NCBI RefSeq assembly: GCF_902652685.1
Contig: NZ_CACRUY010000003.1
Location: 1 to 64,000, forward strand
Source of the DNA: Mycobacterium sp. Marseille-P9652
GTDB taxonomy: Bacteria; Actinomycetota; Actinomycetes; Mycobacteriales; Mycobacteriaceae
Reading direction: 5' to 3'
DNA: 64,000 nucleotides
Shown here piece after piece: positions 14,101 through 38,965 of the stretch. A program made the position numbers and the translations under genes. The first letter of the stretch is position 1. Every line of letters begins with the position of its first letter. The notes beneath the pieces are model-generated. The model searched no databases, was not told the origin of the DNA, and was given only the letters and a program-made list of their open reading frames with translations.

Positions 14101-15309
14101 TCAAAGGGGAAAACGACGACGGACGCCGTCGAAGCGCTCCCACATCAACGCTGTGCGTTCGGCGCTGGTGACGCGCGGGGTCTCTCGAGGCAGCGCCTCT
14201 GGGAGGTCGGCATGCTTGACCAGCCGGGTGGTCAGCGCCGCGGGCTCACCCGCGAGCATGTGGCGGTAGGTGAGGTTCCCGCGTTCGAACCCCTGGGTGT
14301 CGACCCAGTTGTGATAGCCGGGGTCGTGGTGGGCCAGAATCAGCCTCACTTTGCCGTCGCCGTCGACTGACGCCCGGCTCGGCGTGTAGCTCACCGGCCG
14401 GTAGAGAAAATCCATGCTGGTGAAGTACGCGCCCATGTTCGTGATCATCCACAGGCCCTCGTGGGCATCGAACTCGACGATGAGGGCTTCGTCCGGCCCC
14501 AGTTCCCAGTACATGTTGGCGGCGGTTCGTCCGCGCTTGCCGTCCGCATCCGACGGGTCCGGGCGGGGGAACCGGTTGGGATGCCGATGGTCTACGCCCC
14601 CATGGGCGAACGGGAAGTCGGGCCAGTCGCTCATCAGCCCGGTGACGAAATCCCCCGCCCAGCCCATCGCCTCGACCATCGTGGCGGGCGTCGGCACCGG
14701 CTTGGGCGACGTCATGTCGACGCGCTCGATGCGCATCCGCGCGGGGCGCTCATCCCAGCGGTCGAAGCCCTGACGGATGAACAGTTTTCGCGACGCGGCG
14801 GTGGTCGGCAACCAGTTCGGCCCACGCTCGGGACCGCCGACGTACAGCTCGAAAGTGCCGTCCGGCTCGACACGGAGTTGGTCGCCGAGCAGGTTCACCT
14901 CCGGCACGTCGCCAAAGGGCTCGTGCAGCACGCCGGGACCCCCCGGACGCGCGCCCTGCACGGTGACATTGAAAAACGGCGCGGTGCCGCGGGTTCCGGA
15001 GATGCGGTACGTCGATCCGCCGTCGATCCAGACCTGTTGGTAGGTGAAATCGGCGCAGTCTCCCCCGAGTTTGCGGGTCGGGTTACAGAAGGCGTGCAGC
15101 ACCGGATAGCGGCTGTCGCGGGTTTCCAGTGCCAGATCGAAGGCCTGCCCCAGATTCTGCGTGAGAAAGCGGAACGCGTCGGCGCGCTGCACACCCGACG
15201 TCGCGTTGAAGTCCTTGAACGCCTGCCTGCCGGCCGCTTTCAACCGCTCGCAGAACTGATCCCACGCGTCGCCGAGCGCCGCATCGTCTGCCCCTTCGCC
15301 GAAAGCCAT
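14101..15309 (-). CDS. DUF1214-domain protein
   Basis: A 402-residue protein of the DUF1214 type, with GPNWLPT and a C-terminal beta-rich region containing the conserved NMYWELGPDEALIVEFD stretch. Relatives are found in mycobacteria and rhodococci, often in catabolic clusters, and have no established reaction. The start is ATG 15309, preceded by GAAGGGG. It is the last gene of the leftward catabolic operon, 16 bp after the TIM-barrel gene. Its stop codon is the left edge of the inserted block; a further 200 bp without recognised features precede the Rv0111-type gene. Confidence 0.75.
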   Translation of the reverse strand: MAFGEGADDAALGDAWDQFCERLKAAGRQAFKDFNATSGVQRADAFRFLTQNLGQAFDLALETRDSRYPVLHAFCNPTRKLGGDCADFTYQQVWIDGGSTYRISGTRGTAPFFNVTVQGARPGGPGVLHEPFGDVPEVNLLGDQLRVEPDGTFELYVGGPERGPNWLPTTAASRKLFIRQGFDRWDERPARMRIERVDMTSPKPVPTPATMVEAMGWAGDFVTGLMSDWPDFPFAHGGVDHRHPNRFPRPDPSDADGKRGRTAANMYWELGPDEALIVEFDAHEGLWMITNMGAYFTSMDFLYRPVSYTPSRASVDGDGKVRLILAHHDPGYHNWVDTQGFERGNLTYRHMLAGEPAALTTRLVKHADLPEALPRETPRVTSAERTALMWERFDGVRRRFPL

Positions 15310-15325
15310 TGCATCCCCTTCGTTC

Positions 15326-16129
15326 TCAGGCGCCGAGCCTGTCGAGCATCGCGCTCACCGTCGCGCACGCCCGGCCGGCCGCCGCCAGCCTGCCCTCGGC
15401 GTCGATTCGCGGCCCGAGCAGTTCCAGGTCGAAGCCGAACCGGTAGCCCCCGGCCAACGCCTGAGCCACGAACGACTCGATCGGAATCGTGCCGTCGCCG
15501 GGCACCGCCCTGGCCGGCAGAGCCCGGTCTCCCAGCACGTAATCGCTCAACTGGATGAGTTGCGTCCGCGGCAGCGCCCGCCGCAGCAGGCCCGCGAGAT
15601 CGGCTTCGGCCCAGCAGTGGAACAGGTCGATGCAGACGCCGAGCCCGGCCCGCTCGGCGAGGGTGACGGTGTCCCGCAGGGTGTGTGCGATATGGATGTC
15701 GGCGTAGAGGCTGGACGCGTTCTCGATGGCCAGGGCGACGCCGGCCTCCTCCGCCTCCCGCACGCACGGTTCGATCGCGCGACAGAACCGGTCGGCCGCC
15801 TGCTCCCAGTCCAGTTCACCGCGCCCGCCGGTGAGCATGTAGATGCACCGCGCTCCCACCCCGGCGGCGGCATCGATGAGCCCGGACAGGTGCGCGCGTC
15901 CGCCGGTTACCGACTGCCCTTCCGCCGACAATCGGCCGTCGCCGAACAGGTGGTAGACCGCCTCGACCCGGTAACCCTCGCCCCGGACCAGCCGCGCGAA
16001 GCCGGGGTCGAGAAGTTGGGCGTCGAGGACGCTCAGGTGTCGCAGGCCGAGGGATGTCCAATGCCGTTGCAGCTCAGCGAGGTCCGCCCCGAGGAAGGTG
16101 ACATTGTGGACAGAGAGCCTGCTGCGCAT
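15326..16129 (-). CDS. Xylose-isomerase-like TIM-barrel protein
   Basis: A 267-residue sugar-phosphate isomerase/epimerase-like TIM barrel (AP-endonuclease-2 fold). Candidate metal ligands are IENASS (Glu), CIDLFHCW (Asp, His), QLSDY (Asp) and DLELLG (Glu). Such proteins isomerise or dehydrate small hydroxy-keto compounds in catabolic pathways. ATG 16129 begins seven bases after the sulfotransferase stop; an upstream extension to 16174 would overlap that gene. The substrate is unknown, but the placement indicates a role in the same pathway. Confidence 0.72.
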   Translation of the reverse strand: MRSRLSVHNVTFLGADLAELQRHWTSLGLRHLSVLDAQLLDPGFARLVRGEGYRVEAVYHLFGDGRLSAEGQSVTGGRAHLSGLIDAAAGVGARCIYMLTGGRGELDWEQAADRFCRAIEPCVREAEEAGVALAIENASSLYADIHIAHTLRDTVTLAERAGLGVCIDLFHCWAEADLAGLLRRALPRTQLIQLSDYVLGDRALPARAVPGDGTIPIESFVAQALAGGYRFGFDLELLGPRIDAEGRLAAAGRACATVSAMLDRLGA

Positions 16130-16136
16130 CGGTGTG

Positions 16137-17306
16137 TCAATCGCGCTCTTCGATGCCGACGCCGAACCGCTCACGGAAGGGCGTGAATTCGGCGTGCAGG
16201 TCTTCGAGATTCTCCCCGATGTCGGTCAACACGCGCGTGGAGTACCGGAACTTGCCGTAGCGGTCGCCGCGGTTGTGGGCCAGGTAGTCGCGCATGGCCG
16301 CCTCGGCCTCCGCGGTGAGGGTGCGGCCGCAGAAGGCGTAGTAGCGGCCCACGGTCGCGACCGGATCGGCGATGAAGTCGGAATAGGGGACGTGCAGGAT
16401 CCGGGGGTCGTCCACCATCGGGTGGGTCATGGTGTTGGCGATGCTGGCCCGAGTCATCTCGAGATGCTTCTTCGCCTCCACGGCGAGGTCGATCCCACCG
16501 ACGATGCCGTCGAGGATGTCGGCCATCATCATGGTGCGGGACGCCGCGACCTGGACGGGGTCGCGGTGCAGCCACACCAGGGTCGCGTCGGGATAGGCAC
16601 CGAACAGCTCCTGCAGGCGAAACCCGTGAAAGCCCTTCAGCACCCAGTATTTTCGCGGGCGGTTGTACTGGAACTGTTGCAGCATCGCCTTGTGCAGCCG
16701 GTACTGCGCCGCCGCGTCCGTCGGCAGGCCGGCGACCAGTGTCTGCATCGGGACCCGCCACCACGCCGTCGGGGTCATCACCCGGAAGTCGAAGGCCCAG
16801 GTGCGCTCGTCTTCCGGAAGACCGTCGCCGAGCATGTCGTTGTAGGGGTGGCTGAGCAGCCATTTGGGCATCTTCGCGTTGATCTCACGCCAGTCGGCGT
16901 CCGCCCGGGACCGGCGCGGGTCGTCCGGGCCGGTGACGCCGGGCGGCGGTGACGGGTACATCACCTCCCAGAAGCGCAGCGCGCGGGCGTGTGGATCCAC
17001 CGCCATCAGGGCGTGCATCAGCGTGGTGCCCGAGCGCGGCTCGCCCGTCACGAACATCGGCCGATCGATCACCTCGGCGGCGATCGGATAGCGGTTGCGG
17101 TCCTCGATGAACTCCAGCCGCGACGTCAGCAGCCAGTGACAGACGTCCTCCGCCTGTGCGACGCCGTTCGGGTCCATGCCGATGGCGTTGAGGTGGTCGA
17201 CCGCCAAGCGGAACCGCTCCGGCAGCGTCGGATCGCCGTAGTCGTCGAGTCCCGTCTCGGTGCGGGCGCGGGCGAGCATCGCGTTCGCGTCGAGTGCTGC
17301 CGTCAC
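16137..17306 (-). CDS. Sulfotransferase family protein
   Basis: A 389-residue protein with the 5'-phosphosulfate-binding loop GEPRSGTTLMHALM (about residues 88-101) and a 3'-phosphate-type segment WLHRDPVQVAASR. These are the PAPS-binding elements of sulfotransferases. Many mycobacterial paralogues have this architecture without proven activity. GTG 17306 shares its TGA with the stop of the upstream luciferase-like gene (GTGA overlap), which supports translational coupling. A sulfotransferase inside a catabolic operon is unusual; it may modify a hydroxylated intermediate or serve another nucleotide-dependent role. Confidence 0.78.
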   Translation of the reverse strand: MTAALDANAMLARARTETGLDDYGDPTLPERFRLAVDHLNAIGMDPNGVAQAEDVCHWLLTSRLEFIEDRNRYPIAAEVIDRPMFVTGEPRSGTTLMHALMAVDPHARALRFWEVMYPSPPPGVTGPDDPRRSRADADWREINAKMPKWLLSHPYNDMLGDGLPEDERTWAFDFRVMTPTAWWRVPMQTLVAGLPTDAAAQYRLHKAMLQQFQYNRPRKYWVLKGFHGFRLQELFGAYPDATLVWLHRDPVQVAASRTMMMADILDGIVGGIDLAVEAKKHLEMTRASIANTMTHPMVDDPRILHVPYSDFIADPVATVGRYYAFCGRTLTAEAEAAMRDYLAHNRGDRYGKFRYSTRVLTDIGENLEDLHAEFTPFRERFGVGIEERD

Positions 17307-18430
17307 GGCTGAGCTCCACACAGACTCAACAACTCGTCCTCCGTCTTGCGCACGTTGACCTGCGAGGCGGCGCTGAACTCGAGTCCGGCCATCGCACCGT
17401 AGTCCAGGATCTTGGGAACGCGAAGCCCCGCATCCACATACGACTTGATGATTCGGGCAACCTCGTGTGGTGTGCCGTGCGGCACGACCGCCCGGATCGC
17501 GTCCGGGTCGACGCGGCGAAGGAAGTCGACGATCCGTTCGCGCGTCAGCGTCGTCGGGTCGATGTCGTGAAACCCGCCCCAGTCATCTCCCATCGGGTGA
17601 GCAAAGCCGAAGCGGCGCAGCTGTTTCGCCGGCACCTGCAGCAAGAACGCCGCCACCAGCGGGGCGCGCACGATCTTCTCGATCGCGTCGTCGTCTTCGC
17701 CGATCAGGCAGACCTGCACGTAGCACGGTGTGATCGCCATCGGGTCGCGGCCGGCCCGTTCGGCCGATTGCCTTATCGCGCCGAGCATCTCGGCGTAGTG
17801 GTCGGGGGTCCATGCTCCGGCCGGCCACCAACCGTCGGCGTAACGCCCGACGATGTCGAGCATCCGTGGCCCGCTGGCGCCGATCCAGATGGGCGGGAAG
17901 CGCCCCTGGTACGGCTCGGTGTCCAGCCGGGCATGACGCAGCCGGTAGAACCGGCCCTCGAAGTCCACCGGCCCGTCGCTGTCCCAGAGGAGTCGAATGA
18001 CGTTCAGGGCTTCCTCGAAACGGCTGACGGGTCGGGCGAAGTCGAAACCGTAGGGCAGGATGTTCTCGGCCTCGCCGCTGCCCAGGCCGAGGATGAACCG
18101 CCCGCGGGAAAGGTGGTCGATGGTCAGCGCGCTCTGGGCCAGCATGGCCGGGTGGCGGCGGACCGTGTCCACCACACTCGTGGCCAACGGCACGTTGTCG
18201 GTCAGCACGGCCGCGGCCGCGGCGACCGCCATGCCGTCGAGGTGGCGGTGCGGCGACGGCGAGGACGTCGCGAGGTCGGTGAACTCCGGCGTCCACAGCG
18301 CATCGGGCCAGAAGCTCACCATGTGGTCGGGCAGCCAGATCGAGTGGTAGCGGCCGGTATCCAACTCGGCCAGGCCCGACAGGTTCAATGGAAGCGTCGT
18401 GCGTACGAACGCGGCGGGCCACACGTTCAC
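17303..18430 (-). CDS. Luciferase-like (LLM-class) flavin/F420-dependent oxidoreductase
   Basis: A 375-residue LLM-class enzyme related to F420-dependent glucose-6-phosphate dehydrogenase and phthiodiolone ketoreductase. Typical segments are [76 protein letters not shown] and a C-terminal [18 protein letters not shown]. These bind the deazaflavin or flavin cofactor in a TIM barrel. GTG 18430 overlaps the SDR stop as GTGA; the frame stays open far upstream, but that part lies inside the SDR gene and reads as shadow sequence. Likely role: reduction or oxidation of a pathway ketone. Confidence 0.83.
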
Positions 18431-19209
18431 CGCTCGATCCACTCCGAGTTCAGCGCGAAGTCGGACAGGTACCGGGTCGAGCTCCACCCGCCGTCGACGA
18501 CGATCGTCTGCCCGTTGATGAAACTCCCGCCGGGCGAACACAGGAACGCGACGGTGCTGGCGATGTCGTCGACCATCCCCAGCCGCTGGTGGGGCGTCAG
18601 CTCGGTGTTGATCTTGCGGAACCGGTCGTCTTCCAGGCGATTCTCGACCATCGGCGTCACGGTCACACCGGGCGCGACGGCGTTGCAGCGGATGCCCGAG
18701 GCGCCGTACTGGCAGGCGATGTGGGTGGTCAGCGCGGTCAGCCCACCCTTGGCCGCCGAATACGCCCCGCCGCGAAGCCCGCCGACGACGGCGAACGTCG
18801 ACGTGATGTTGATGATCGCCGCCGGAGGCCGCAGGTGGGGAAGCACCTCGCGCGCGAGCCGAAACGGCGCCCGCAGCATCAAACCCAGGAAATAGTCCAA
18901 GGTTTCGTCGTCCGTCTCGTGCAGCGGCTTGGGATTGCCCACCCCGGCGTTGTTGATCAGGAAGTCGACGTGCCCCCACCGGTCGACGGCGAGGTCGACA
19001 ATCCGTCGCGGAGCGTCGTCCTGGGTCAGGTCGACGGCCAGGGTGGCGACCCGCGCCGGGTCGCCGATAGACCGTTCGAGCGCGGTCAACCGATCCTCGT
19101 CACGACCCGTGCCGAGGACGGCCATCCCCATCTCGGCGAGTTTCGTCGCGCAGCCCAGACCGATGCCGCTGCTTGCGCCCGTGACGATCGCGACCTGCAT
19201 GTCAGCCAT
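18427..19209 (-). CDS. Short-chain dehydrogenase/reductase (leftward operon)
   Basis: A 260-residue classical SDR. The NAD(P)-binding motif is [10 protein letters not shown] (residues 10-19), followed by NNAG, a catalytic Ser in INITS and YSAAKGG (Tyr-xxx-Lys). ATG 19209 has GGGAGA eight bases upstream and overlaps the acyl-CoA ligase stop by eight bases; its own stop overlaps the next gene by four. It probably oxidises a hydroxy intermediate to a ketone; cofactor preference and substrate cannot be told. Confidence 0.85.
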
Positions 19210-20845
19210 CCCGTGTCTCCCGGCGGCGACCCGCCGCGCCTTCGGGTGCCACGGACGTCAGCACCGCTCTGATCCGATGTTTGAGGACCTTGCCCGCGTC
19301 GTTCTTGGGGAGCGCGTCCCAGATGACCACCTGCTCGGGCGCTTTGAACGTGGCGACACCCTTGCTCTTCAGCGCGGCGAGCAGGCTCGCGACGTCGGGC
19401 CCCGACTCCTGCGCCGGGACGATCACCGCGCACGCCCGTTCCCCGGTCCGGTCGTCGGGCAGTCCGACCACCGCGATCTCGGCGATGCCGGGGTGGTCGG
19501 CGAGCAGGTCCTCGACCTCCTTCGCCGAGATGTTCTCGCCGTTGCGGATGATGACGTCCTTGGCCCGCCCCGTCACGAGGAGGTACTGGTCGTCGACCCA
19601 GCGGCCGAGGTCCCCGGTGCGGAAAAAGCCTGCGGCGTCGAATGATTCGACGTCGTCCTCGGGGTGACGGTAGCCCAGCAGCATCTGCGGTCCGCGCACA
19701 CAGATCTCACCGTCGCCCACCGGGGCGGCGTCGTGTGGGACAAGCTTGATCTCGGCGATGCCGGCCCGTCCGTCGGTGTCCGCGGCCCGATCGGCTTCGT
19801 CGCGACGGGGTGCGCCGACGGTCGCGACCGGCACTTCGGTGCAGCCGTACACCCGGGTCACGACCGCCCGATCGAAATACCCGGCGGCGCGCCGGATCAG
19901 CGAGGGCGCCACGGACGCGCCGCCGCAGATGAAGACCTTCAGATCCGGCAGACGTGTGCCGGCGCGTTCCGCGGCGGAGAGCAGCTGCTGCAGAAACGGT
20001 GTCGCCCCCGCCATGTGGGTGCAGCGTTCGCCATCCATCAACGTCACCGCCGTCGACGCGTCCCAGCGGTCCATCAGCACCGCGGTGGTGCCGAGGATCA
20101 GCGGGCACTCGAACGCGTAGATTGAACCGCCGATGTGAGCGATGGGCGAGGGAACCAGGAACGCGTCACCCGCCTCGACGTTCCACTGGTCGCGGATCTG
20201 ACAGATCAGGGCGTGGATCGAGTTGTGACTGTGCAGAACGCCTTTCGGGCGCCCGGCGGTGCCCGACGTGTACAGGACCATTCGGACCGCGTCCGGGTCC
20301 AGGGCCGGCAACTCGCGCGCGTCCCGCCGCTCGCTCAGCAGCCGGGGGTACGGAGTGTGTGCACCGGGTTCACCGCGCAGCACCACGACCTCGGGGGCAC
20401 GGCGCATCGCGGCGGTCACGCGGTCGAGCATCGCCACGTAGTCATGGCCGCCGAACCGGTGCGGGACGAAGACCATGGCGGCCTCGACGTCTTCGAGGAT
20501 GAAGCGCAGGTCGTGGTCGCGCAGCGACGGCAGGATCGGGTTCACCACCATCCCGGCAAGCGTCGCCGCCAGGTAGATCACCGCGGCCTCGTGCCAGTTC
20601 GGCAGCATGAACGACACCGTGCTGCCGGGCGGGAGGCGTGCCGTCAGGGCGGCGGCCAACCCGGCGGCCTGCGCGTGGAGCGTGGCGCAGTCCAGCCGAG
20701 TGTCGCCGTCCACCAACACCGTTCGCTGGGGTGAGGTCTCCGCGGCGGCCCGCAGTGAATCGGCCAGCGTGGTGTGCACCCACCATCCGGCCCGGTACGC
20801 CTCCGCCGCGCGTACCTCGTCCATCGCGACGCCCGGCCTACTCAT
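19202..20845 (-). CDS. Acyl-CoA ligase (cyclohexanecarboxylate-CoA ligase-like)
   Basis: A 547-residue ANL ligase that activates a carboxylic acid to its CoA thioester through an acyl-AMP. The adenylation loop is [14 protein letters not shown] (about residue 193), with TGDLG and the motif [17 protein letters not shown]; the C-terminal catalytic Lys is in [11 protein letters not shown]. The overall layout resembles AliA-type cyclohexanecarboxylate ligases and medium-chain FadD proteins. ATG 20845 overlaps the GntR stop by eight bases; ATG 20824 is an alternative start. It probably activates the ring-opened acid of this pathway. Confidence 0.83.
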
Positions 20846-21578
20846 TCACGCGGCGCATGGTCATCGCGTAGCGAAAGCTCGACGACAGATGGGTGTTGAT
20901 CGTCACCTGGGCGACCTCGCCATCGGAGGTCTCGTAGGTGCGTCGCATCTGTAGCGCGGCGGTGCCCGCCGTCACTCCGAGGCCGTCGGCCAGCTCGGGA
21001 GGCAGCAGCACTGCGGCGATCTCCTGGCGCAGCTCGGCGATGCTCACACCGAACAGGTCCTCGATCAACGGGAAGATCGGGCCGGTGTGGCGCTGCAGCA
21101 GCCTGCCGACCGCGGCGAAATCGCGGTTGATGTAGTACTCTGTCCGGCACAACGGCGCCTGCGCGCCGTCGGCCTGCCGGTAGCCGCGCACCGAGAGCCA
21201 CTGTGTGCCGGGCGCCAGACCCGTGCGGGCGGCGAGTTCGTCGTCGATCACCACCATCTCGTTGGACTCGATGGTCAGCTGCGCACCGGCCGCGAACGCG
21301 AGCAGGTCGTCGATCGACATCGTCTCCTGCGCATAGGAACTGGACGCCGGACGGGGAACCACACGGGTGCCCGCCCGAGGTCGCGAGGCGACGAGGTTGT
21401 CCTCGCTCAGCCGGCGCAGCGCTTCGCGGACCGTGTAGCGGCTCACCGCGAATCGCTCACACAGTTGGTGTTCGGTCGGTAGCTGCGAACCCACCGGGTA
21501 CACGCCGTCGACGATCTCCTTGCGCAGCGTGCGCGCGATCTGCAGGTAGCGGTGTTCGCTCGAAATGGCCTGGGACAT
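20838..21578 (-). CDS. GntR-family regulator, HutC/UTRA subfamily
   Basis: A 246-residue regulator. The N-terminal winged HTH (about residues 5-75) has the GntR signature VGSQLPTEHQLCERFAVSRYTVREALRRL. The C-terminal UTRA ligand-binding domain (about residues 95-240) contains CRTEYYINRDFAAVGRLL. ATG 21578 shares its A with the TGA of the upstream beta-propeller gene (TGATG). As the only regulator inside the block it is the prime candidate for controlling both divergent operons through the GTCC(A/G)GACAA sites at 23262 and 23358. The ligand is likely a pathway substrate or intermediate. Confidence 0.88.
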   Translation of the reverse strand: MSQAISSEHRYLQIARTLRKEIVDGVYPVGSQLPTEHQLCERFAVSRYTVREALRRLSEDNLVASRPRAGTRVVPRPASSSYAQETMSIDDLLAFAAGAQLTIESNEMVVIDDELAARTGLAPGTQWLSVRGYRQADGAQAPLCRTEYYINRDFAAVGRLLQRHTGPIFPLIEDLFGVSIAELRQEIAAVLLPPELADGLGVTAGTAALQMRRTYETSDGEVAQVTINTHLSSSFRYAMTMRRVNE

Positions 21579-23200: not shown

Positions 23201-23261
23201 GTCCGGTCGAAATCCTTCCACCCGTGAGCGCCCGTCTGCCACGGACGCTACCAAGCGGCAC

Positions 23262-23273
23262 TAGTCCAGACAA
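23262..23273. promoter_or_regulatory. Candidate GntR operator, copy 1
   Basis: TAGTCCAGACAA lies 62 bp upstream of the leftward operon's start codon. It shares the near-palindromic core GTCC(A/G)GAC followed by AA with the site at 23358. The core resembles operators of HutC-type GntR proteins, such as the GGTCTAGACC centre of DasR sites. Confidence 0.5.
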
Positions 23274-23299
23274 TAGCCGCAAACGCGCCCTTTCCCGAC

Positions 23300-23328
23300 C
23301 TTGACAGCCTGGGTTCTCGGTGGGAATA
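23300..23328 (+). promoter_or_regulatory. Candidate promoter for the rightward catabolic operon
   Basis: A TTGACA hexamer near 23300 is followed about 17 bases later by GAATAG, upstream of the SDR start at 23396. Copy 2 of the putative operator lies downstream of it, a position suited to repression. Start of transcription is not known. Confidence 0.4.
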
Positions 23329-23357
23329 GTGTTCTCCAAAAGGCAGAATCCGACTTG

Positions 23358-23369
23358 TGGTCCGGACAA
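23358..23369. promoter_or_regulatory. Candidate GntR operator, copy 2
   Basis: TGGTCCGGACAA contains the perfect palindrome GTCCGGAC. It lies between the candidate promoter at 23300 and the first start codon of the rightward operon, where a bound repressor would block transcription. Confidence 0.5.
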
Positions 23370-23395
23370 ATGTTTGGGCGCTCGGGAAGCAGGTC

Positions 23396-25617: not shown

Positions 25618-25630
25618 GGAGAAACGCGCC

Positions 25631-27481
25631 ATGTCATTGTTCGACGAGTGCGGGCCGACCGACACACCCGACGACATCGACCTCGCCGCGCTGCGGGAAA
25701 AGTACCTGCACGAGCGCGACAAGCGGTTGCGCTCGGAGGGCTCCCAGCAATACCTCGAACTGAAGGGTGACTACGCCGACTTCTACGAGGTGGATCCGTA
25801 CACGCCGGTGTCGGTCCGCGATCCGATCGCCGAGGACGTCGAGGTGGCGGTGCTTGGCGGCGGCATCGCCGGTCTGCTGGCCGGCGCCTACCTCAAGAAG
25901 GCCGGGGTCGCCGACATCCGCGTCATCGAAATGGGCGGGGACTTCGGGGGAGTCTGGTACTGGAACCGCTTCCCGGGAATCCAATGCGACAACGACGCAT
26001 ACTGCTACATCCCGCTGCTCGAAGAGCTCGACTACGTGCCGACGAAGAAGTACGCCGACGGCGCCGAGATATTCGCGCACTGCCGCAACATCGGCAAACA
26101 CTTCGGGCTCTACGACGGGGCGATCTTCTCCACCCAGGTCACCGAGATGCGCTGGGACGACGCGATCCAGCGGTGGCGGCTCGGCACCAACCGCGGCGAC
26201 GACATCCGCGCACGCTTCGTGGTCATGACGCAGGGCTCGTTCAACCGACCGAAACTCCCGGGCGTTCCGGGCATCAAGGATTTCACAGGGCACCAATTCC
26301 ATTCGGCGCGATGGGATTACGAATACACCGGCGGCGACGCCAGCGGCGGACTGCACAAGCTCCGCGACAAGCGCGTCGCGCTCGTGGGCACCGGCGCGAC
26401 CGGCGTGCAACTGGTGCCGCACCTGGGCCGGGACGCGCGGCATCTCTACGTCTTTCAGCGCACGCCCTCGTCGGTGGACGTGCGGGGCAACGAGCCGACC
26501 GACCCGAACTGGGCGGCGTCGCTGCGGCCGGGCTGGCAGGAGGAACGCAAACGCAACTTCCACCGCTGGTCGCCCCTGGGCGGAGGGGTGGTCTTCGACC
26601 AGGCCGACATGGTCTGCGACTTCTGGACCGAACTGGGCCGCAACATGACCGCGCGGCTCGCCGCGATGGACGATCCCGCGTCCCTGTCGATGGAACAGCT
26701 CGCCGCGATCCACGAGGAAGAGGACTACAAGGTCATGGAGCGGCTCCGCCGCCACGTCGACGCCGTCGTCGACGACCCGGACACCGCCGAGGCCCTCAAG
26801 CCCTATTACCGGTTCATGTGCAAACGGCCCTGCAGCAACGACGAGTACCTGGCTACCTACAACCGGCCGAACGTGACACTGGTCGACGTGTCGGACTGCA
26901 AGGGCGTCGAACGGGTGACCGAAAAGGGATTGGTGGCCAACGGGATCGAGTACGAGGTCGACTGCATCATCTGGGCCAGCGGCTTCGAGATCACCACCGA
27001 GATCAGCCGGCGCTACGCCATCGACGTCATCGAGGGCCGCGACGGCCTGTCGCTGTTCGACCACTGGCGGGACGGCTATCGGTCGCTGCACGGCATCACG
27101 AGCGCCGGCTTCCCGAACCAGTTCTTCACCGGTTTCATCCAGGGCGGCGTGTCGGCGAACACCACCGCGATGTTCGAGCAGCAGGCCGAACACATCGCCT
27201 ACATCATCGCCGAGGCGATAGCGCGCGGGGCGACGACCGTGGAGCCTAGCCGCCAAGCGCAGGAGGACTGGGTCCAGACGATCCGCGAAGTCGCCGTGGA
27301 CACAACGGAGTTCGCCGTCTCCTGCACGCCGGGCTACTACAACAACGAGGGCGGCGGTGGCGGGGAGGGCATCCGCTCGGCCATCGGCGAATACTATGCG
27401 CCCGGCTTCTACGAGTTCGGTGACCTGATCAAGCAGTGGCGCGACAAGGGCGACCTGGAAGGTCTGGTCCTGGGCGGATGA
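25631..27481 (+). CDS. Baeyer-Villiger-type flavin monooxygenase
   Basis: A 616-residue FAD/NADPH monooxygenase with two Rossmann motifs: GGGIAGLLAG (about residue 76) for FAD and GTGATG (about residue 253) for NADPH. Between them is the exact class I BVMO fingerprint FxGxxxHxxxW (FTGHQFHSARW, residues 218-228). GGVWYWNRFPG is also typical of cyclohexanone- and phenylacetone-monooxygenase relatives. The N-terminal extension of about 70 residues is as in larger BVMOs. The start ATG 25631 has a GAGGAG site upstream. The family converts ketones to esters or lactones. Confidence 0.9.
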   Translation: MSLFDECGPTDTPDDIDLAALREKYLHERDKRLRSEGSQQYLELKGDYADFYEVDPYTPVSVRDPIAEDVEVAVLGGGIAGLLAGAYLKKAGVADIRVIEMGGDFGGVWYWNRFPGIQCDNDAYCYIPLLEELDYVPTKKYADGAEIFAHCRNIGKHFGLYDGAIFSTQVTEMRWDDAIQRWRLGTNRGDDIRARFVVMTQGSFNRPKLPGVPGIKDFTGHQFHSARWDYEYTGGDASGGLHKLRDKRVALVGTGATGVQLVPHLGRDARHLYVFQRTPSSVDVRGNEPTDPNWAASLRPGWQEERKRNFHRWSPLGGGVVFDQADMVCDFWTELGRNMTARLAAMDDPASLSMEQLAAIHEEEDYKVMERLRRHVDAVVDDPDTAEALKPYYRFMCKRPCSNDEYLATYNRPNVTLVDVSDCKGVERVTEKGLVANGIEYEVDCIIWASGFEITTEISRRYAIDVIEGRDGLSLFDHWRDGYRSLHGITSAGFPNQFFTGFIQGGVSANTTAMFEQQAEHIAYIIAEAIARGATTVEPSRQAQEDWVQTIREVAVDTTEFAVSCTPGYYNNEGGGGGEGIRSAIGEYYAPGFYEFGDLIKQWRDKGDLEGLVLGG

Positions 27482-27583
27482 TTCTGACGACGGCCCCCGC
27501 TCGGCGTTGCCAACGTCGACTTGTTGCGGGAAGAAAGCCCATTTCCCCACAACAACTCCGCGCTCGACGCGCGAGGCAAGCCG

Positions 27584-28513
27584 GTGCTTAGGTTCGACGA
27601 CCGCGTGGCGGTCGTGACCGGAGCCGGCCGCGGCGTGGGCCGCGCGTACGCGCAACTTCTGGCGTCACGCGGCGCGAAGGTCGTCGTCAACGACTCCGGC
27701 GTCACACTGGCCGGCGACGGGCCCGACGCCGGACCGGCCGAGCGCGTGGTCGGTGAGATCGCAGCGGCCGGAGGGCGGGCCGTCGCGAGCACCGCGTCGG
27801 TCGGCACCCCCGCAGGGGGCGAGGCGATCATCCGGACCGCGCTCGACTCGTACGGGCGCCTCGACATCCTGATCCACAACGCCGGCATCGTCCGCCGCGG
27901 CTCGCTGAAAGAGATGAGCTACGACGACTTCGACGCCGTCCTCGACGTGCATTTGCGCGGCGCGTTCAACGTCGTACGGCCGGCGTTCCCGGTCATGTGC
28001 GAGTCCGGGTACGGGCGCATCGTGCTGACCTCCTCGATCGGGGGCCTGTACGGGAACCGCGACATAGCCAACTACGCGGCCGCCAAGGCCGGCGTGACCG
28101 GCCTGTCCCACGTCGCCGCCCTCGAGGGCGCCGCCGAGGGGGTCCGAAGCAACGTCATCATTCCGGCGGCCGTGACACGAATGGCCGACGGGATCGACAC
28201 CTCGGCGTATCCCCCGATGGACGCCGATCTCGTTGCGCCCGTGGCGGCCTGGCTCGCCCACGAGTCCTGCTCGGTGACCGGGGAGATGTTCATCGCGCTG
28301 GCGGGCCGCGTCGCGCGCGCCGTCGTCGCCGAGAGCCCAGGCGTGTGCCGGCCGTCGTGGACGATCGAGGATGTCGACGAATGTCTGGACGCCATCCGCA
28401 ACATCGATGCGCCGCTGGTGTTCCCGCCCGTGCCGGATGGTCACGGCGAGCACATCCGCTACAGCTTCGGGCTGGCGCACCGGTCCGGCGATCGGGGCGC
28501 GCTGCATGGCTGA
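27584..28513 (+). CDS. SDR-family dehydrogenase, 17beta-HSD4/FOX2-like
   Basis: A 309-residue SDR that begins LRFDDRVAVVTGAGRGVGRAYA and continues with GAKVVVNDSG, HNAG, LTSSIGGLYGN and NYAAAKAG. This resembles the 3-hydroxyacyl-CoA dehydrogenase domain of multifunctional beta-oxidation proteins, but without hydratase or SCP2 domains. GTG 27584 with GAGGC upstream is preferred to TTG 27521. Its 3' end overlaps the CoA-transferase start by eight bases. The substrate is probably a CoA ester or hydroxy acid. Confidence 0.8.
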   Translation: MLRFDDRVAVVTGAGRGVGRAYAQLLASRGAKVVVNDSGVTLAGDGPDAGPAERVVGEIAAAGGRAVASTASVGTPAGGEAIIRTALDSYGRLDILIHNAGIVRRGSLKEMSYDDFDAVLDVHLRGAFNVVRPAFPVMCESGYGRIVLTSSIGGLYGNRDIANYAAAKAGVTGLSHVAALEGAAEGVRSNVIIPAAVTRMADGIDTSAYPPMDADLVAPVAAWLAHESCSVTGEMFIALAGRVARAVVAESPGVCRPSWTIEDVDECLDAIRNIDAPLVFPPVPDGHGEHIRYSFGLAHRSGDRGALHG

Positions 28514-29684
28514 TCGGACGGGCCCGCTGGCCGGCGTGCTGGTGATCGACCTCACCGCAATGGTGATGGGCCCCTACTGCACGCAGATCATGGCCGACAT
28601 GGGCGCCGACGTGATCAAAGTCGAACCGCCGCAGGGCGACAACACCCGATACATCTCCGTTGGCCCGGCGCCGGGCATGAGCGGGGTGTTCGTCAACGTC
28701 AACCGCGGCAAGCGCAGCGTCGTGCTGGACCTGCACACCGACGACGGCGCACGGGCCCTGCGCGCACTGCTCGAAACCGCCGACGTGTTCATCCATTCCA
28801 TGCGCGCCAAGGCGATCGCCAAGCTCGGCTTCGCCTACGACGACGTCGCCGCCATCAACCCGGCGATCGTCTACACCAACTGCTACGGCTACGGCCGGCG
28901 CGGACCCGATCGCGACCGGCCCGCCTACGACGACACGATTCAGGCCGAGTGCGGCCTGCCGGCGGTGCAGGAGCAGCTGACCGGCGAGGCCGACTATGTC
29001 GGAACCATCATGGCGGACAAGGTCGCCGGCCTCACCGCGCTGTACGCCACCACGATGGCGCTGTTCCACCGCGAGCGCACCGGGGAGGGTCAGGAAGTCG
29101 AAGTCGCCATGTTCGAGACCATGGCGTCGTTCATGCTTGTCGAGCACGCCAACGGCGCCCTGTTCGACCCTCCGCTGGGTCCGGCGGTGTACCCGCGGAC
29201 GGTGGCGCCCAACCGGCGTCCGTATCGCACTAGCGATGGGCACATCGCCGTGTTGATCTACAACGACAAGCACTGGAGCGCGTCGATGGAGGCGGTGCGG
29301 CCGGCTTGGGCCGACGAGTCGTATGCGACGCTGGAACAGCGCGCACGTCAGATCGACACGATCTACGGGTTGGTGGCCGAGACGATGAAACAGCGCTCGA
29401 CCCGGGAGTGGTTGGCGCTGTTGCGCGAACTCGAGATACCGGCCGCTCCCCTGAACACCCCCGGCGACCTCTTCGACGATCCACACCTCAATGCCGTCGG
29501 CATGTTCGAGACCGTGGACACCCCGAACGGGCCGGTGCGCTTCCCGGGCGTCCCCACCTGGTTCTCCCGGACGCCCGGTCGCGTCGCGGGTCCGGCGCCG
29601 GAGCTCGGAGCCGACACCGCGGAGATACTCGAACAGCTCGGGGCGAGCGCGGCGCCGCCGGCTCACGATGGAAAGGAATTTTGA
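28506..29684 (+). CDS. Class III CoA-transferase (CaiB/BaiF family)
   Basis: A 392-residue family III CoA-transferase. It shows the N-terminal LAGVLVIDLTAMVMGPYCTQ, ADMGADVIKVEPP, NVNRGKRSVVLDL, and DDTIQAECG (candidate catalytic Asp). Family enzymes move CoA between carboxylic acids through a mixed anhydride on Asp; formyl-CoA:oxalate CoA-transferase is the best-known member. Start ATG 28506 lies within the end of the SDR gene. It precedes a ThDP enzyme by two bases, the same pairing seen in oxalate frc-oxc operons. Confidence 0.87.
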   Translation: MADRTGPLAGVLVIDLTAMVMGPYCTQIMADMGADVIKVEPPQGDNTRYISVGPAPGMSGVFVNVNRGKRSVVLDLHTDDGARALRALLETADVFIHSMRAKAIAKLGFAYDDVAAINPAIVYTNCYGYGRRGPDRDRPAYDDTIQAECGLPAVQEQLTGEADYVGTIMADKVAGLTALYATTMALFHRERTGEGQEVEVAMFETMASFMLVEHANGALFDPPLGPAVYPRTVAPNRRPYRTSDGHIAVLIYNDKHWSASMEAVRPAWADESYATLEQRARQIDTIYGLVAETMKQRSTREWLALLRELEIPAAPLNTPGDLFDDPHLNAVGMFETVDTPNGPVRFPGVPTWFSRTPGRVAGPAPELGADTAEILEQLGASAAPPAHDGKEF

Positions 29685-29686
29685 GA

Positions 29687-31399
29687 ATGGCTGTGCCCGT
29701 GTACAAACGCATTCTCGACCTTTTCGAGGCCGAGGGCGTGAACACGCTGTTCGGCATCCCGGACCCGAACTTCGTGCACATGTTCGCCGAGGCCGACGCC
29801 CGCGGATGGTCGGTGGTCGCGCCGCACCACGAACTGAGCGCGGGCTTCATGGCCGAGGCGGCGTCACGGATGACCGGCAAGCCCGGGCTGTGCATCGGCA
29901 CCCTCGGCCCGGGCATGGCCAACATCGCCGGAGCGGTCCAATGCGCGCTCGTGGAGAACTCGCCGGTGATATTCCTCGGCGGGCAGCGCGCCCGCGTCAC
30001 CGAGCGCCGGGTTCGGCGCGGACGCATCCAATTCGTCCGCCAGGAGCCTCTTGTCGCAGCGTCGGTCAAGTACAGCGCGTCCATCGAGTACGCCGACCAG
30101 ACCGACGAGATCGTCCACGAGGCAATCCGCCGGGCTATGTCGGGCACACCCGGCCCGGCCTACATCGAGTACCCCTCGCACGTGATACTCGAGGAGCTCG
30201 ACGTCGCGGATCCGCCGCCGCCGCAGCGGTATCGGCTGGTGAACCAGGGCGCGGGTGAGCGGGAGGTGGCCGCGGCCGCGAAGCTGATCCGCGAGGCCAA
30301 GAGCCCTGTCCTGCTGGTCGGCCATGGCGTGCACACCTCCCGCACGCAACAGCAGGTCAAGGAGTTGGCCGAGCTGATGGCCTGCCCGGTGATCCAGACA
30401 TCCGGTGGCACCTCATTCATCCCGGGACTGCAGGAGCGGACGTTCCCCTACTTGTTCTCCCCGGCGGCCAACGAGGCGGTTGAGGAATCCGACCTGTGCG
30501 TCGCGCTGGGTACCGAACTCGGTGAGCCCATGCACTACGGCCGCACCCAGCATTGGGCCGGCAACGACGCGAACCGCAAATGGGTGTACGTGGAGCAGGA
30601 CCCGGCCGCCATCGGCGTCAACCGTCCGATGGACGTGGCGCTGGTCGGCGATCTGCGCGGTGTGGTGCCGCAGCTCGTCTCCGCACTCAAGGATTCTCCG
30701 CGCAAAGCCGCTCCCGCGCTGCAGGTCCTGATCGACAAGGATGCGAAAGAGCTTGCCGCGATGGCGGAATCGGCACCGTCCGGGCGCTCGCCGATCCACC
30801 CGGCGCGCTTCGTCGTCGAGGCCACCAGGGCATTCAACGAACTCGAGGACGGCATCATGGTGCGCGACGGTGGCGCCACGGTGATCTTCGGTTGGACCTA
30901 CTCGCAGGCCAAGCCGCGCGACGTCATGTGGAACCAGAACTTCGGCCACCTCGGCACCGGCCTGCCCTACGCGATCGGAGCATCCGTCGCCGACGGCCGC
31001 AAGCGCCCGGTGATGCTGCTGACCAGTGATTCGAGTTTCCTCTTCCACATCGCCGAGCTGGAAACCGCTGCGCGGCTGAACCTTCCACTGATGTGCGTGG
31101 TGGGCGTCGACCATCAGTGGGGCTTGGAAGTGGGTGTTTACAAGCGCACGTTCTCCCAGCCGTCGCCGCAGCCCGGTGTGCACTGGAGCAAGGACGTCCG
31201 GATGGACAAGGTCGCCGAGGGCTTCGGATGCCACGGTGAGTACGTCGAGAAGGACGAGGAGATCGGTCCGGCGATCGCTCGCGCCTACGCCAGTGGCAAG
31301 GTCGGTGTGGTGCACGTGTGCATCGATCCGAAGGCCAATTCCGAGGAAATGCCCAAGTACGACCGATTCCGGACCTGGTATGCCGAAGGCACTCAGTAA
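29687..31399 (+). CDS. ThDP-dependent lyase/decarboxylase, hydroxyacyl-CoA-lyase-like
   Basis: A 570-residue enzyme with three ThDP-family domains. The catalytic Glu is Glu49 in HHELSAGFMAEAASRM. The PP-domain cofactor motif begins at about residue 447 with SDSSFLFHIAELE, in which the usual GDG is replaced by SDS, and ends with VDHQWG instead of NN. This departs from oxcA in the same window. Next to a class III CoA-transferase and an aldehyde dehydrogenase, a 2-hydroxyacyl-CoA lyase releasing formyl-CoA and an aldehyde is my preferred guess. Acetolactate-synthase-like or benzoylformate-decarboxylase-like chemistry remains possible. Confidence 0.8.
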   Translation: MAVPVYKRILDLFEAEGVNTLFGIPDPNFVHMFAEADARGWSVVAPHHELSAGFMAEAASRMTGKPGLCIGTLGPGMANIAGAVQCALVENSPVIFLGGQRARVTERRVRRGRIQFVRQEPLVAASVKYSASIEYADQTDEIVHEAIRRAMSGTPGPAYIEYPSHVILEELDVADPPPPQRYRLVNQGAGEREVAAAAKLIREAKSPVLLVGHGVHTSRTQQQVKELAELMACPVIQTSGGTSFIPGLQERTFPYLFSPAANEAVEESDLCVALGTELGEPMHYGRTQHWAGNDANRKWVYVEQDPAAIGVNRPMDVALVGDLRGVVPQLVSALKDSPRKAAPALQVLIDKDAKELAAMAESAPSGRSPIHPARFVVEATRAFNELEDGIMVRDGGATVIFGWTYSQAKPRDVMWNQNFGHLGTGLPYAIGASVADGRKRPVMLLTSDSSFLFHIAELETAARLNLPLMCVVGVDHQWGLEVGVYKRTFSQPSPQPGVHWSKDVRMDKVAEGFGCHGEYVEKDEEIGPAIARAYASGKVGVVHVCIDPKANSEEMPKYDRFRTWYAEGTQ

Positions 31400-31412
31400 G
31401 TAAGGAGCAGTC

Positions 31413-32834
31413 ATGCGCGAATGCTTGCAGTTCTACATCGACGGCCGCTGGGTGGACCCGGTGCGGCCCAACACGTTTGACGTCGAGAATCCCGCCACCG
31501 AGCGGGCCTCGGGGCGGATCTCCCTCGGCTCGGCCGCCGACGTGGACGTCGCGGTCAACGCGGCGCGGCGTGCCTTCGCCGGTTGGTCGCAAAGCAGCCG
31601 TGAAGAGCGGCTCGACCTGCTGGAGGCCATCCTCGCCGAATACCAGAAACGGGCGGGCGATCTCGCCGAGGCGGTCACCGAGGAGATGGGCGCGCCGCCC
31701 GCCCTGGCCGCCGGCCCGCAGGTGCAGCTGGGGATCGGCCACCTGGTGACGGCGATCGATGTGCTGAAGAACTTCTCATTCGAAGAACAGCACGGGGCAA
31801 CGCTGATCGCCAAGGAGCCGATCGGCGTCTGCGGCCTGATCACGCCGTGGAACTGGCCGATCAACCAGATCGCGGTCAAGGTGTATCCGGCGTTGGCGAC
31901 CGGGTGCACGATGATCCTGAAACCGTCGGAGGTGGCGCCCTTCTCGGCCTACGTCTTCACCGAGATCCTCGACGCGGCGGGCGTGCCGGCCGGGGTGTAC
32001 AACCTCGTCAACGGCGACGGCCCCGGGGTCGGCGTGGCCCTGGCGAGTCACCCCGACGTCGACATGGTGTCGTTCACCGGGTCCACGCGGGCGGGTGTCG
32101 AGGTGGCCAGGAATGCCGCCCCGACGGTGAAGCGGGTGACGCAGGAACTCGGCGGCAAGAGCCCCAACATCGTCCTCGACGACGCGGGCTTCGCCGACAG
32201 CGTGCGCGCCGGCGTGGCCAACATGATGCCGAACACGGGCCAGAGTTGTAACGCGCCGTCGCGCATGCTCGTGCCCAATTCGCGCGTGGCGGAGGCCATC
32301 GAGATCGCGCGGGGTGTTGTGGACCAGGTGAAGGTGGGCGACCCCGGAGACAAGAGAGCCATCGGACCGGTGGCCTCCCAGTCGCAATTCGAAAAGGTGC
32401 AACGCCTGATCCAGACGGGTATCGACGAGGGCGCGACCCTCGTCGCCGGCGGCCCGGGGCGGCCGGCCGGGCTGGACAAGGGCTACTACGTCAAGCCGAC
32501 CGTCTTCGCCAACGTCAGCAACGACATGACGATCGCGCGCGAGGAGATCTTCGGCCCGGTGCTGTGCATCCTCGGCTACGACGATCTCGACCAGGCCGTG
32601 CAGATCGCCAACGACACCGATTACGGTCTGGCGGGCTATGTTTCGGGGGCCGACCTCGACAAGGCGCGAGAGGTGGCCCACAAGATTCGCGCCGGCTGGG
32701 TCACCATCAACCATGCCTTCGACATGAACTCGGCCTTCGGCGGATACAAGCACAGCGGCAACGGGCGGGAGTGGAGCGAATTCGGATTCAACGAGTACCT
32801 CGAAACCAAGAGCACCTTGGGCTACGCGCCGTAA
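31413..32834 (+). CDS. NAD(P)-dependent aldehyde dehydrogenase
   Basis: A 473-residue aldehyde dehydrogenase. The general-base Glu is in QELGGKSPNIVLDD (about residue 245), and the nucleophile is Cys279 in NTGQSCNAPSR. GLITPWNWP and the C-terminal FGGYKHSGNGREWSEFG are family hallmarks. The start ATG 31413 is preceded by AAGGAG. It follows the ThDP enzyme by 13 bases and probably oxidises the aldehyde released there. Confidence 0.92.
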   Translation: MRECLQFYIDGRWVDPVRPNTFDVENPATERASGRISLGSAADVDVAVNAARRAFAGWSQSSREERLDLLEAILAEYQKRAGDLAEAVTEEMGAPPALAAGPQVQLGIGHLVTAIDVLKNFSFEEQHGATLIAKEPIGVCGLITPWNWPINQIAVKVYPALATGCTMILKPSEVAPFSAYVFTEILDAAGVPAGVYNLVNGDGPGVGVALASHPDVDMVSFTGSTRAGVEVARNAAPTVKRVTQELGGKSPNIVLDDAGFADSVRAGVANMMPNTGQSCNAPSRMLVPNSRVAEAIEIARGVVDQVKVGDPGDKRAIGPVASQSQFEKVQRLIQTGIDEGATLVAGGPGRPAGLDKGYYVKPTVFANVSNDMTIAREEIFGPVLCILGYDDLDQAVQIANDTDYGLAGYVSGADLDKAREVAHKIRAGWVTINHAFDMNSAFGGYKHSGNGREWSEFGFNEYLETKSTLGYAP

Positions 32835-32862
32835 CGGCACGGATATCAGCGGGGAGGTCGTC

Positions 32863-34023
32863 GTGAAGTGTCGCGCCGCCGTCATCCGCGGGGTGGGCAG
32901 GGACTGGGAGATCCACGAGATCGAGCTCGATCCGCCCCGCAGCGGTGAAGTGCTGGTGCGCATGGCCGTTGCCGGAGTCTGTCACTCCGACGACCATCTG
33001 TTCACCGGCGATGTCGTGCCGACCCCCGAGGTGCTGGCCGCGAGCGGTCAGCCCGCACCGGACTGGTTCCCGCTCCTCGGCGGTCACGAGGGCGCCGGTA
33101 TCGTCGCCGAGATCGGACCGGGCGTGACGACGGTGCGGCCGGGGGACCGCGTGGCGCTGTCGTTCATCCCCGCCTGCGGCAATTGCCGATTCTGCGTGAA
33201 CGGTCAAAGCTACATCTGCGACATCGGTGCCAGCCTGTTCGTGCGGGAGATGCCCACCGACGGGACGTGCCGCCGGCATCTCGGAGACGAAAACCTCTTG
33301 GCCTACGGCCAACTCGGCACGTTCGCCGAATACGCGGTGCTCTCCGAGAGGTCCGTCATCAAGATCGACGACACGATCCCCTTCCACGCCGCGTCACTGG
33401 TGTCGTGCGGCGTGAGCACCGGGTGGGGGTCGGCGACGATATCGGCGGGCACCGAACCCGGCGACACGGTGGTCGTCATCGGCACCGGCGGTGTCGGGAT
33501 GAACGCTTTGCAGGGTGCGCGGGCCGTCGGCGCGAGGAACGTCGTCGCGGTGGATCCGGTTGATTCCAAGCGGGATTCGGCGAAATTCTTCGGTGCCACG
33601 CATGCCGCCGCCTCCGCCGAGGAGGCGATACCGCTGGTCCGGGAGATCACCGCCGGCGTCATGGCCGACCGCGTCGTCCTCAGTCCCGGAGTGGTGCACG
33701 TGGACCTGATCCCGTTGGCGATGGCGCTGCTCCGCAAGGGCGGGATATGCGTGCTCACCGGAATCACCCCGTTCACCGAACCTCCGGTTCCGTTGGTGCT
33801 GCAGGAGCTCACCCTGTCGGCCAAACAGCTTCGGGGAGCGCTCTACGGCGGGATGAACCCGCGCACCAGCGTGCCGATGCTGTTGTCGCTCTACCAGGCC
33901 GGCGCGCTGAAGCTCGACGAGTTGGTCACCCGGCACTACCGGCTCGACGAGATCAACGAGGCGTTCACCGACCTGCGCGAGGGCCGCAACATCCGCGGCA
34001 TCATCGATTTCACGGGCAGCTGA
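32863..34023 (+). CDS. Zn-dependent alcohol dehydrogenase, NDMA/mycofactocin type
   Basis: A 386-residue zinc MDR alcohol dehydrogenase. Catalytic zinc ligands are Cys40 and His75-Glu76. The structural zinc lobe has Cys105, Cys108, Cys111 and Cys119, and the cofactor motif GTGGVGMNALQG lies near residue 208. The layout resembles the NDMA-dependent alcohol dehydrogenases (Rxyl_3153 family), whose NAD is thought to be recycled through mycofactocin. The start is GTG 32863 after GGGGAGG. It is the last gene of the rightward catabolic operon and ends 18 bp from the convergent SRPBCC gene. Confidence 0.82.
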   Translation: MKCRAAVIRGVGRDWEIHEIELDPPRSGEVLVRMAVAGVCHSDDHLFTGDVVPTPEVLAASGQPAPDWFPLLGGHEGAGIVAEIGPGVTTVRPGDRVALSFIPACGNCRFCVNGQSYICDIGASLFVREMPTDGTCRRHLGDENLLAYGQLGTFAEYAVLSERSVIKIDDTIPFHAASLVSCGVSTGWGSATISAGTEPGDTVVVIGTGGVGMNALQGARAVGARNVVAVDPVDSKRDSAKFFGATHAAASAEEAIPLVREITAGVMADRVVLSPGVVHVDLIPLAMALLRKGGICVLTGITPFTEPPVPLVLQELTLSAKQLRGALYGGMNPRTSVPMLLSLYQAGALKLDELVTRHYRLDEINEAFTDLREGRNIRGIIDFTGS

Positions 34024-38818: not shown

Positions 38819-38965
38819 GCTTTCGACAGGGCAGCTTTACCCCCGAAGACCAGACGATTCGACCCGCCGTAGCGGCCTACCGCCCGGAGCATCCGTGGAC
38901 GGCTCCCCCACGCGCCGGGATCATGGGAACAATCTCGACGCAGGCGCAAGCGAAGGGTGAGGCGA

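Follow-up and report, generated by a model that had tools for sequence, protein, structure and literature searches.

The divergent gene block at positions 14101–34023 of a 64,000-nucleotide stretch from Mycobacterium sp. Marseille-P9652 (hereafter the window; contig NZ_CACRUY010000003.1, source genome of 5.70 Mb in 128 contigs) is a real, widely conserved catabolic cluster whose two arms are very probably co-regulated. As the best explanation of the whole, at a probability of roughly 0.55, we propose an inducible locus that oxidises and opens a ring and passes the resulting acid to coenzyme A (CoA)-linked breakdown. We infer that the locus probably acts on a bulky compound of the alicyclic or terpenoid class.

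Open frames, third-position G+C and Pfam and NCBIfam profiles confirmed the sixteen genes, two divergent arms and enzyme families named in a previous sequence-only reading of the window. Eight genes lie on each strand, with a minus arm (14101–23200) and a plus arm (23396–34023) diverging from a 195-bp spacer, and a script check found no internal stop in any of the sixteen frames. From the spacer outwards, the minus arm encodes a β-propeller protein, a candidate lactonase (21578–23200; AlphaFold2, VIA-align), a GntR/UTRA regulator (20838–21578; PF00392 and PF07702), an AMP-binding acyl-CoA ligase (19202–20845; PF00501, 238.7 bits) and a short-chain dehydrogenase/reductase (SDR), SDR_A (18427–19209; NCBIfam). 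The plus arm begins with SDR_B (23396–24244), a carnitine-monooxygenase-like Rieske oxygenase α subunit (24241–25617; PF00355 and the Ring_hydroxyl_A family PF00848), an FMO-like type I Baeyer–Villiger monooxygenase (BVMO; 25631–27481) and SDR_C (27521–28513, for which later scripts took the GTG at 27584 as the start; PF00106, 142.1 bits). It continues with a family III CoA-transferase (28506–29684; CoA_transf_3, PF02515, 382.1 bits), a thiamine diphosphate (ThDP)-dependent enzyme (29687–31399; PF00205, PF02775 and PF02776) and an aldehyde dehydrogenase (ALDH; 31413–32834; PF00171, 493.4 bits). Four accessory genes close the minus arm and one closes the plus arm.

The gene set recurs far beyond chance, since its content and, for seven genes, its order reappear in distant genera. 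GTDB species genomes were scanned with the ThDP protein of a relative from outside the genus, and the best 80 of 367 encoding stretches were kept, so the sample leans towards close relatives of the query. These comprise 65 non-mycobacterial actinomycete, 12 mycobacterial and 3 proteobacterial loci, with several strains for some species; G167, G058 and G134 recur. In 53 of the 65 non-mycobacterial actinomycete loci, from genera that include Nocardia, Rhodococcus, Actinomadura and Pseudofrankia, the genes for the propeller, SDR_B, Rieske oxygenase, BVMO, SDR_C, ThDP enzyme and ALDH follow one another without interruption, in this order and on a single strand. Two of the other 12 hold all seven with one frame between them, several run off the contig, and a few are rearranged or missing a gene. 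Mycobacteria keep the same seven together with the propeller gene turned round and the CoA-transferase gene, often with dehydrogenase genes as well, placed before the ThDP gene; to the seven they add the UTRA-type GntR regulator, the CoA ligase, an SDR and the CoA-transferase. The three proteobacterial loci come from metagenome bins. The gammaproteobacterial one (L186) holds the BVMO, Rieske, ThDP and ALDH genes together with SDR_C and propeller genes nearby, six of the seven in scrambled order, which suggests cross-phylum transfer or mis-binning; L185 carries Rieske and ThDP genes, and L188 carries ThDP and ALDH genes.

Presence and absence were also compared across mycobacteria, a check that the sequence-only reading had called for. 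In a search of 148 genus genomes, the window's own included, a BVMO orthologue was found in 110 at an identity of at least 69%, with the next best matches at no more than 55%. A window-specific insertion is thereby ruled out, as it is by the seven-gene operon of other genera. The ThDP protein was matched at E 1e-150 in 76 of these genomes, and among the 74 with both genes it lies within 30 kb of the BVMO gene in 66: 22 have the spacing of the window (3.8–4.1 kb), 41 a longer one (8.0–9.9 kb), and 3 carry it upstream. The remaining 8 have it far away or on another contig. We fetched twenty loci from genomes with a BVMO orthologue, chosen across the identity range. All twenty contain nine mycobacterial core genes, with SDR_A, CoA ligase, GntR and propeller making up one arm and SDR_B, Rieske oxygenase, BVMO, SDR_C and CoA-transferase the other (two of these genes, SDR_A in L033 and SDR_B in L024, escaped the gene caller). 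A set of acyl-CoA dehydrogenase genes stands beside the core in 14 of the 20, including all 11 long-spacing loci, where it follows the CoA-transferase gene (Pfam, one member of each of four kinds).

The divergent spacer contains two operator-like sites, TAGTCCAGACAA at 23262–23273 and TGGTCCGGACAA at 23358–23369, and a −35-like element, TTGACA, at 23301–23306, all on the plus strand. The operator 10-mer GTCCAGACAA occurs in all 31 mycobacterial divergent stretches compared (29 distinct, L025/L193 and L030/L190 being duplicate pairs; L194 and L195 were left out), and in 29 of them a second GTCC(A/G)GAC site lies 95–97 bp from the first, the exceptions being L038 and L184. The 28 columns of the operator sites are 95% conserved on average, compared with 56% for the other 168, and the TTGACA on the plus side stands out likewise in the footprint of conserved columns. 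Outside the mycobacteria, the operator is absent from all 56 upstream stretches compared. Genome-wide, the full pattern TNGTCCRGACAA has three exact copies, two of which are the spacer sites, and a two-mismatch scan within the window gave four matches against 4.16 expected, a count no higher than chance, with all four falling on the two sites. The GT-N4-AC symmetry fits GntR operators. Because this double operator is conserved in the divergent spacer, the two arms are very probably co-regulated. The earlier view of an integrated block for oxidative catabolism that has a GntR regulator of its own is supported. The regulator itself scores 89.1 bits against the HutC histidine utilisation repressor profile TIGR02018 (cut-off 220).

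The third exact operator copy (C19:16681–16692) belongs to a second cluster, where it sits at the edge of an acyl-CoA-dehydrogenase-like gene; this cluster also has Rieske, SDR_C-like, enoyl-CoA-hydratase-like and amidohydrolase-like genes, all families being judged by eye. A one-mismatch scan for a wider regulon gave 71 genome matches (both strands, exact copies included) against 43 for the reversed control, and no regulon was defined from it.

The two arms could alternatively be unrelated operons that share a promoter region and act on separate substrates. Such an arrangement would agree with the lack of SDR_A and CoA ligase orthologues in all 65 non-mycobacterial loci, and with three genus genomes that keep just the CoA-transferase, CoA ligase and SDR_A genes at the site. 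We consider it very unlikely: the same pair of conserved operators stands in front of both arms, and the propeller gene, here part of the minus arm, is found immediately upstream of SDR_B and on its strand in other actinomycetes, so that genes of the shared operon are found in both arms.

The BVMO carries the type I fingerprint, FxGxxxHxxxW(P/D), as FTGHQFHSARWD at residue 218, and both of the GxGxxG/A nucleotide-binding motifs of such enzymes (GGGIAG at 76 and GTGATG at 253). It resembles the pentalenolactone D synthases PtlE/PenE and the enzyme of PDB 5mq6 (392.1 bits), which we take to be a polycyclic ketone monooxygenase, in being a type I BVMO of about 600 residues with strong similarity over nearly the full length. 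PtlE is the nearest named family; however, the protein scores 700.2 bits against the PtlE/PenE equivalog NF045818, whose cut-off is 1100, and it sits among genes that look catabolic rather than biosynthetic. A second BVMO gene, with 50% identity to that of the block, lies on the minus strand of the same contig, about 37 kb beyond the block (C3:70630–72402).

Rieske non-haem iron oxygenases combine a CxH...CxxH cluster motif with a 2-His-1-carboxylate iron site. In the Rieske protein of the block, C87/H89, C114/H117, H215, H220 and D410 are invariant among 16 of 16 homologues, and by analogy D410 is the putative third iron ligand. Glu212 occupies the bridging position (ETYH) in the same 16, presumably a feature of CntA. 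Carnitine monooxygenase CntA and glycine betaine monooxygenase GbcA are the closest solved relatives (best PDB match 6y9c; NF058607, 121.8 bits). Unlike these enzymes, the protein aligns over its N-terminal half alone and falls far below the equivalog cut-off of 670, and no quaternary-ammonium genes were recognised in the block.

The propeller protein was modelled by AlphaFold2 at a pLDDT of 89.9 and probably consists of two propellers. Lactonases of the SMP-30/gluconolactonase type are propellers that hold a central metal and hydrolyse lactones. VIA-align matched the model to the lactonases 8djf, 3dr2 and 2p4o and also to NHL propellers; over residues 35–273, single propellers of lactonases and of NHL proteins align equally well, and this region has conserved polar Asn/Asp residues at the blade entries. 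Foldseek returned LRP6-type propeller pairs at a low TM-score.

Against the ScyD/ScyE family the propeller protein scores 124.7 bits, over the cut-off of 80. This match, the sulfotransferase gene in the block and the biosynthetic role of PtlE would suit a cluster for biosynthesis or tailoring that acts on a terpenoid or lipid of the cell's own making. Such a role appears unlikely, as Pfam found no terpene synthase, polyketide synthase or peptide synthase family among the gene matches of the block. The neighbours of the operon in relatives fit breakdown instead: besides the acyl-CoA dehydrogenases, Pfam recognised enoyl-CoA hydratase, acetyl-CoA hydrolase/transferase, citrate-lyase-like and acyl-CoA dehydrogenase genes in L125, and parts of a branched-chain-type ABC importer among chosen neighbours in L144 and L153. 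An orthologue of one of the acyl-CoA dehydrogenases occurs in 30 of the 65 non-mycobacterial loci. Other frequent neighbours outside the genus are genes for a GntR/FCD regulator (47 loci), in place of the block's own GntR, a TauD dioxygenase (37), an SDR (33) and a carboxymuconolactone-decarboxylase-like protein (31); Pfam was checked on one member each of the GntR/FCD, TauD and carboxymuconolactone-decarboxylase-like groups.

ThDP enzymes are marked by an activating Glu and a metal-binding Asp, and Asn is usual as the second metal-site residue. The corresponding E49 and D448 are present in 22 of 22 homologues of the block's enzyme, and Gln115 is kept. It shares the superfamily fold, length, activating Glu and active-site Gln with 2-hydroxyacyl-CoA lyases and oxalyl-CoA decarboxylases, but it has Asp475 as the second metal-site residue and scores 150.7 bits against the 2-hydroxyacyl-CoA lyase profile NF058623 (cut-off 600). 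The structure prediction was weak (pLDDT 66.0), and its fold search therefore serves for superfamily placement alone.

These similarities raise an α-oxidation scheme, in which a branched acid is activated by the CoA ligase and hydroxylated at C-2 by the Rieske enzyme. The ThDP enzyme, as a 2-hydroxyacyl-CoA lyase, would then give formyl-CoA, which the CoA-transferase recycles, and an aldehyde, which ALDH oxidises. Among solved structures, 2-hydroxyacyl-CoA lyases and oxalyl-CoA decarboxylases are indeed the best relatives of the ThDP enzyme, both in sequence and in the fold of the weak model, and the best solved relative of the CoA-transferase bears the name formyl-CoA transferase. In addition, Q115 corresponds to a glutamine reported to be conserved in AcHACL and acetolactate synthase. 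In HACL/S, two arginines are reported to bind acyl-CoA and two further ones, R156 and R276, to bind ADP (PMC8760513, PMC11271303). A phmmer alignment places A261 and W403 of the block's enzyme at the former positions and T154 and E277 at the latter, so all four arginines described there are replaced. Nearly all of the 22 homologues agree: W403 and E277 are found in all, A261 in 20 and T154 in 21, with one Arg at 154. Because these four CoA- and ADP-binding arginines are absent, formyl-CoA release by this enzyme is not favoured. The test is not absolute, since AcHACL, reported to be a working lyase, binds no ADP either (PMC8760513, PMC11271303). An acetolactate synthase scores nearly as well against the ThDP enzyme, and beside the non-mycobacterial operons the CoA ligase orthologue is lacking, as are most orthologues of the CoA-transferase. 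The CoA-transferase belongs to family III but scores 174.6 bits against the formyl-CoA:oxalate CoA-transferase family TIGR03253 (cut-off 504.2), with the succinate–glutarate and mesaconate CoA-transferases of NCBIfam slightly ahead of the formyl-CoA transferases. The residue test thus lowered the α-oxidation scheme, which we regard as doubtful; of the C1 release in the sequence-only reading, the version through formyl-CoA is weakened.

The proposed ring-opening catabolic pathway accommodates both arms as follows, in a reaction order that we infer. The GntR regulator would bind the two operators in the spacer and repress both arms until the substrate or an intermediate frees it. The Rieske oxygenase may then hydroxylate the ring, the SDRs may oxidise the alcohols to ketones, and the BVMO would convert a ring ketone into a lactone for predicted hydrolysis by the propeller protein. 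The ThDP enzyme is proposed to cleave a C–C bond beside a carbonyl (in an α-hydroxyketone, 1,2-dione or 2-oxo acid), releasing an aldehyde that the adjacent ALDH would oxidise to a carboxylic acid. To obtain an acyl-CoA for β-oxidation, mycobacteria would then use the CoA ligase and CoA-transferase; many relatives have the acyl-CoA dehydrogenases of that route within the same cluster. Several observations weigh against this pathway. As matches to the propeller fold, non-enzymatic NHL and PknD propellers equal or slightly surpass lactonases, and neither a reductase nor a ferredoxin to serve the Rieske enzyme was found in the block. The assignment of GntR as the probable binder of the operator-like sites is based on position and co-occurrence. 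Moreover, orthologues of the CoA ligase, SDR_A and GntR occur in none of the 65 non-mycobacterial loci and those of the CoA-transferase in 10, which makes the link of these four genes with the shared chemistry a lineage-specific one, although 14 of the 65 have other CoA-ligase-like genes close to the operon.

More tentatively, the ThDP family, with its GIPDPN motif, Arg-rich loop RARxTExRVRRGRIQ and Asp475 at the metal site, might represent a new catalytic type, a lyase that acts on a free rather than a CoA-bound carbonyl, within an undescribed and widely shared actinobacterial ring-opening pathway that also employs a carnitine-monooxygenase-like Rieske oxygenase and a bulky-ketone BVMO. In agreement with the sequence-only reading, the open-access literature searched contained no described pathway that matches gene for gene, nor any account of what the seven-gene operon degrades. 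The occurrence of these genes, ordered in other genera and together but rearranged in mycobacteria, points to a common natural compound whose breakdown route is undescribed in that literature. A compound that induces both arms would name the pathway, and the locus would show what many mycobacterial species can eat, given a BVMO orthologue in such a share of the sampled genomes. The BVMO and ThDP enzymes may also serve as biocatalysts.

The remaining minus-strand genes encode a DUF1214 protein (14101–15309; PF06742, 28.3 bits, cut-off 25), an AP_endonuc_2 or sugar-isomerase-like TIM barrel (15326–16174, with a possible start at 16129; PF01261, 67.1 bits), a Sulfotransfer_3 sulfotransferase (16137–17321; PF13469, 90.9 bits) and an LLM-class oxidoreductase of the Bac_luciferase family (17303–18424, starting at 18424 or 18430; PF00296, 188.6 bits). 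The last scores 140.4 bits against the F420-type family TIGR03619, under the cut-off of 166.9. We take these four as accessory because they occur together in just one of the twenty fetched loci (G058); an LLM gene of another kind lies between the Rieske and BVMO genes in five of the twenty. The plus arm ends with an accessory zinc-dependent alcohol dehydrogenase (ADH; 32863–34023) of the NDMA-dependent, mycofactocin-coupled type (TIGR03989, 492.9 bits, over the cut-off of 440). A mycofactocin radical-SAM gene is present elsewhere in the genome (675.1 bits, cut-off 265).

The block is flanked on the left by an acyltransferase gene (11893–13902) and on the right by a rhomboid gene (34500–35366), both on the minus strand. 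The placement between these two described previously stands, except that a small SRPBCC gene (34042–34503, minus strand) also lies between the block and the rhomboid gene. The rhomboid and BVMO genes lie within 40 kb of each other in 23 of the 91 genus genomes that have both, the window's included. The idea of a set found at this place alone is not supported: the block recurs at the site, and seven of its genes form a widespread actinomycete operon. Nineteen of the 23 are oriented one way and four (G000, G001, G051 and G058) the other; the block of the window is an extended form in the rarer orientation. Among the five site loci fetched besides the window, four have the acyltransferase on the far side, and the G058 stretch ends short of that position. 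In G134 the ADH gene meets the SRPBCC gene tail to tail as in the window, with the remainder turned round, and an inversion that left the ADH gene in place would explain its position at the end of the window's plus arm. Against a simple inversion, the ADH gene points the other way in G097, the closest relative.

According to the sequence-only reading, the equivalents of the two flanking genes in M. tuberculosis, Rv0111 (acyltransferase) and Rv0110 (rhomboid), are neighbours. The compact acyltransferase–rhomboid junction sought in relatives was seen in one of twenty further rhomboid neighbourhoods (G016, 254 bp between the matches), taken from genomes with no BVMO orthologue nearby and covering 9 kb downstream. 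Three others (G026, G029 and G064, corresponding to L204, L199 and L207) have the CoA-transferase, CoA ligase and SDR_A genes alone between the flanking genes, a short form that is either ancestral or left over from a locus that lost its oxygenase module, and 16 of the 20 showed no recognisable acyltransferase gene within the 9 kb. The acyltransferase–rhomboid site is therefore a recurrent but not universal address, one of several. G097 is the partner of the window in the BVMO tree (support 100/100); the two join Mycobacterium interjectum, a member of the M. simiae complex, at a node of weaker support (89/71). The label for presence at the site (13 of 74 rows, some unchecked rows being counted as elsewhere) needs five changes on this tree, at least four of them on starred branches, so the tree decides neither for one insertion nor for one ancestral placement.

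A plasmid BLAST of the block gave partial matches only. Plasmid pJCM12687 of Mycobacterium branderi (L046) shares the ThDP, ALDH, Rieske, BVMO, SDR_C and CoA-transferase genes at 67–83% identity, so the pathway can be plasmid-borne. Its cluster differs from the block in carrying a P450, a mycofactocin-coupled SDR and an FCD regulator, and no GntR/CoA-ligase arm was annotated or called in the 34-kb stretch. The module is rearranged on this 864-kb plasmid and has a MobF relaxase gene nearby, yet the plasmid is typed as non-mobilizable in PLSDB. A plasmid of Sphingobium sp. RAC03 encodes a CoA-transferase whose gene is 75% identical at the DNA level over 792 bases and has Rieske and acyl-CoA dehydrogenase genes as neighbours; in contrast to the block, no BVMO or ThDP gene is annotated in that stretch, whose gene table is incomplete. 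Near the rhomboid gene, positions 38921–43804 of the window hold overlapping open frames of 1577 (minus strand) and 1615 (plus strand) codons in DNA with 74–77% G+C, perhaps a PE_PGRS-like gene.

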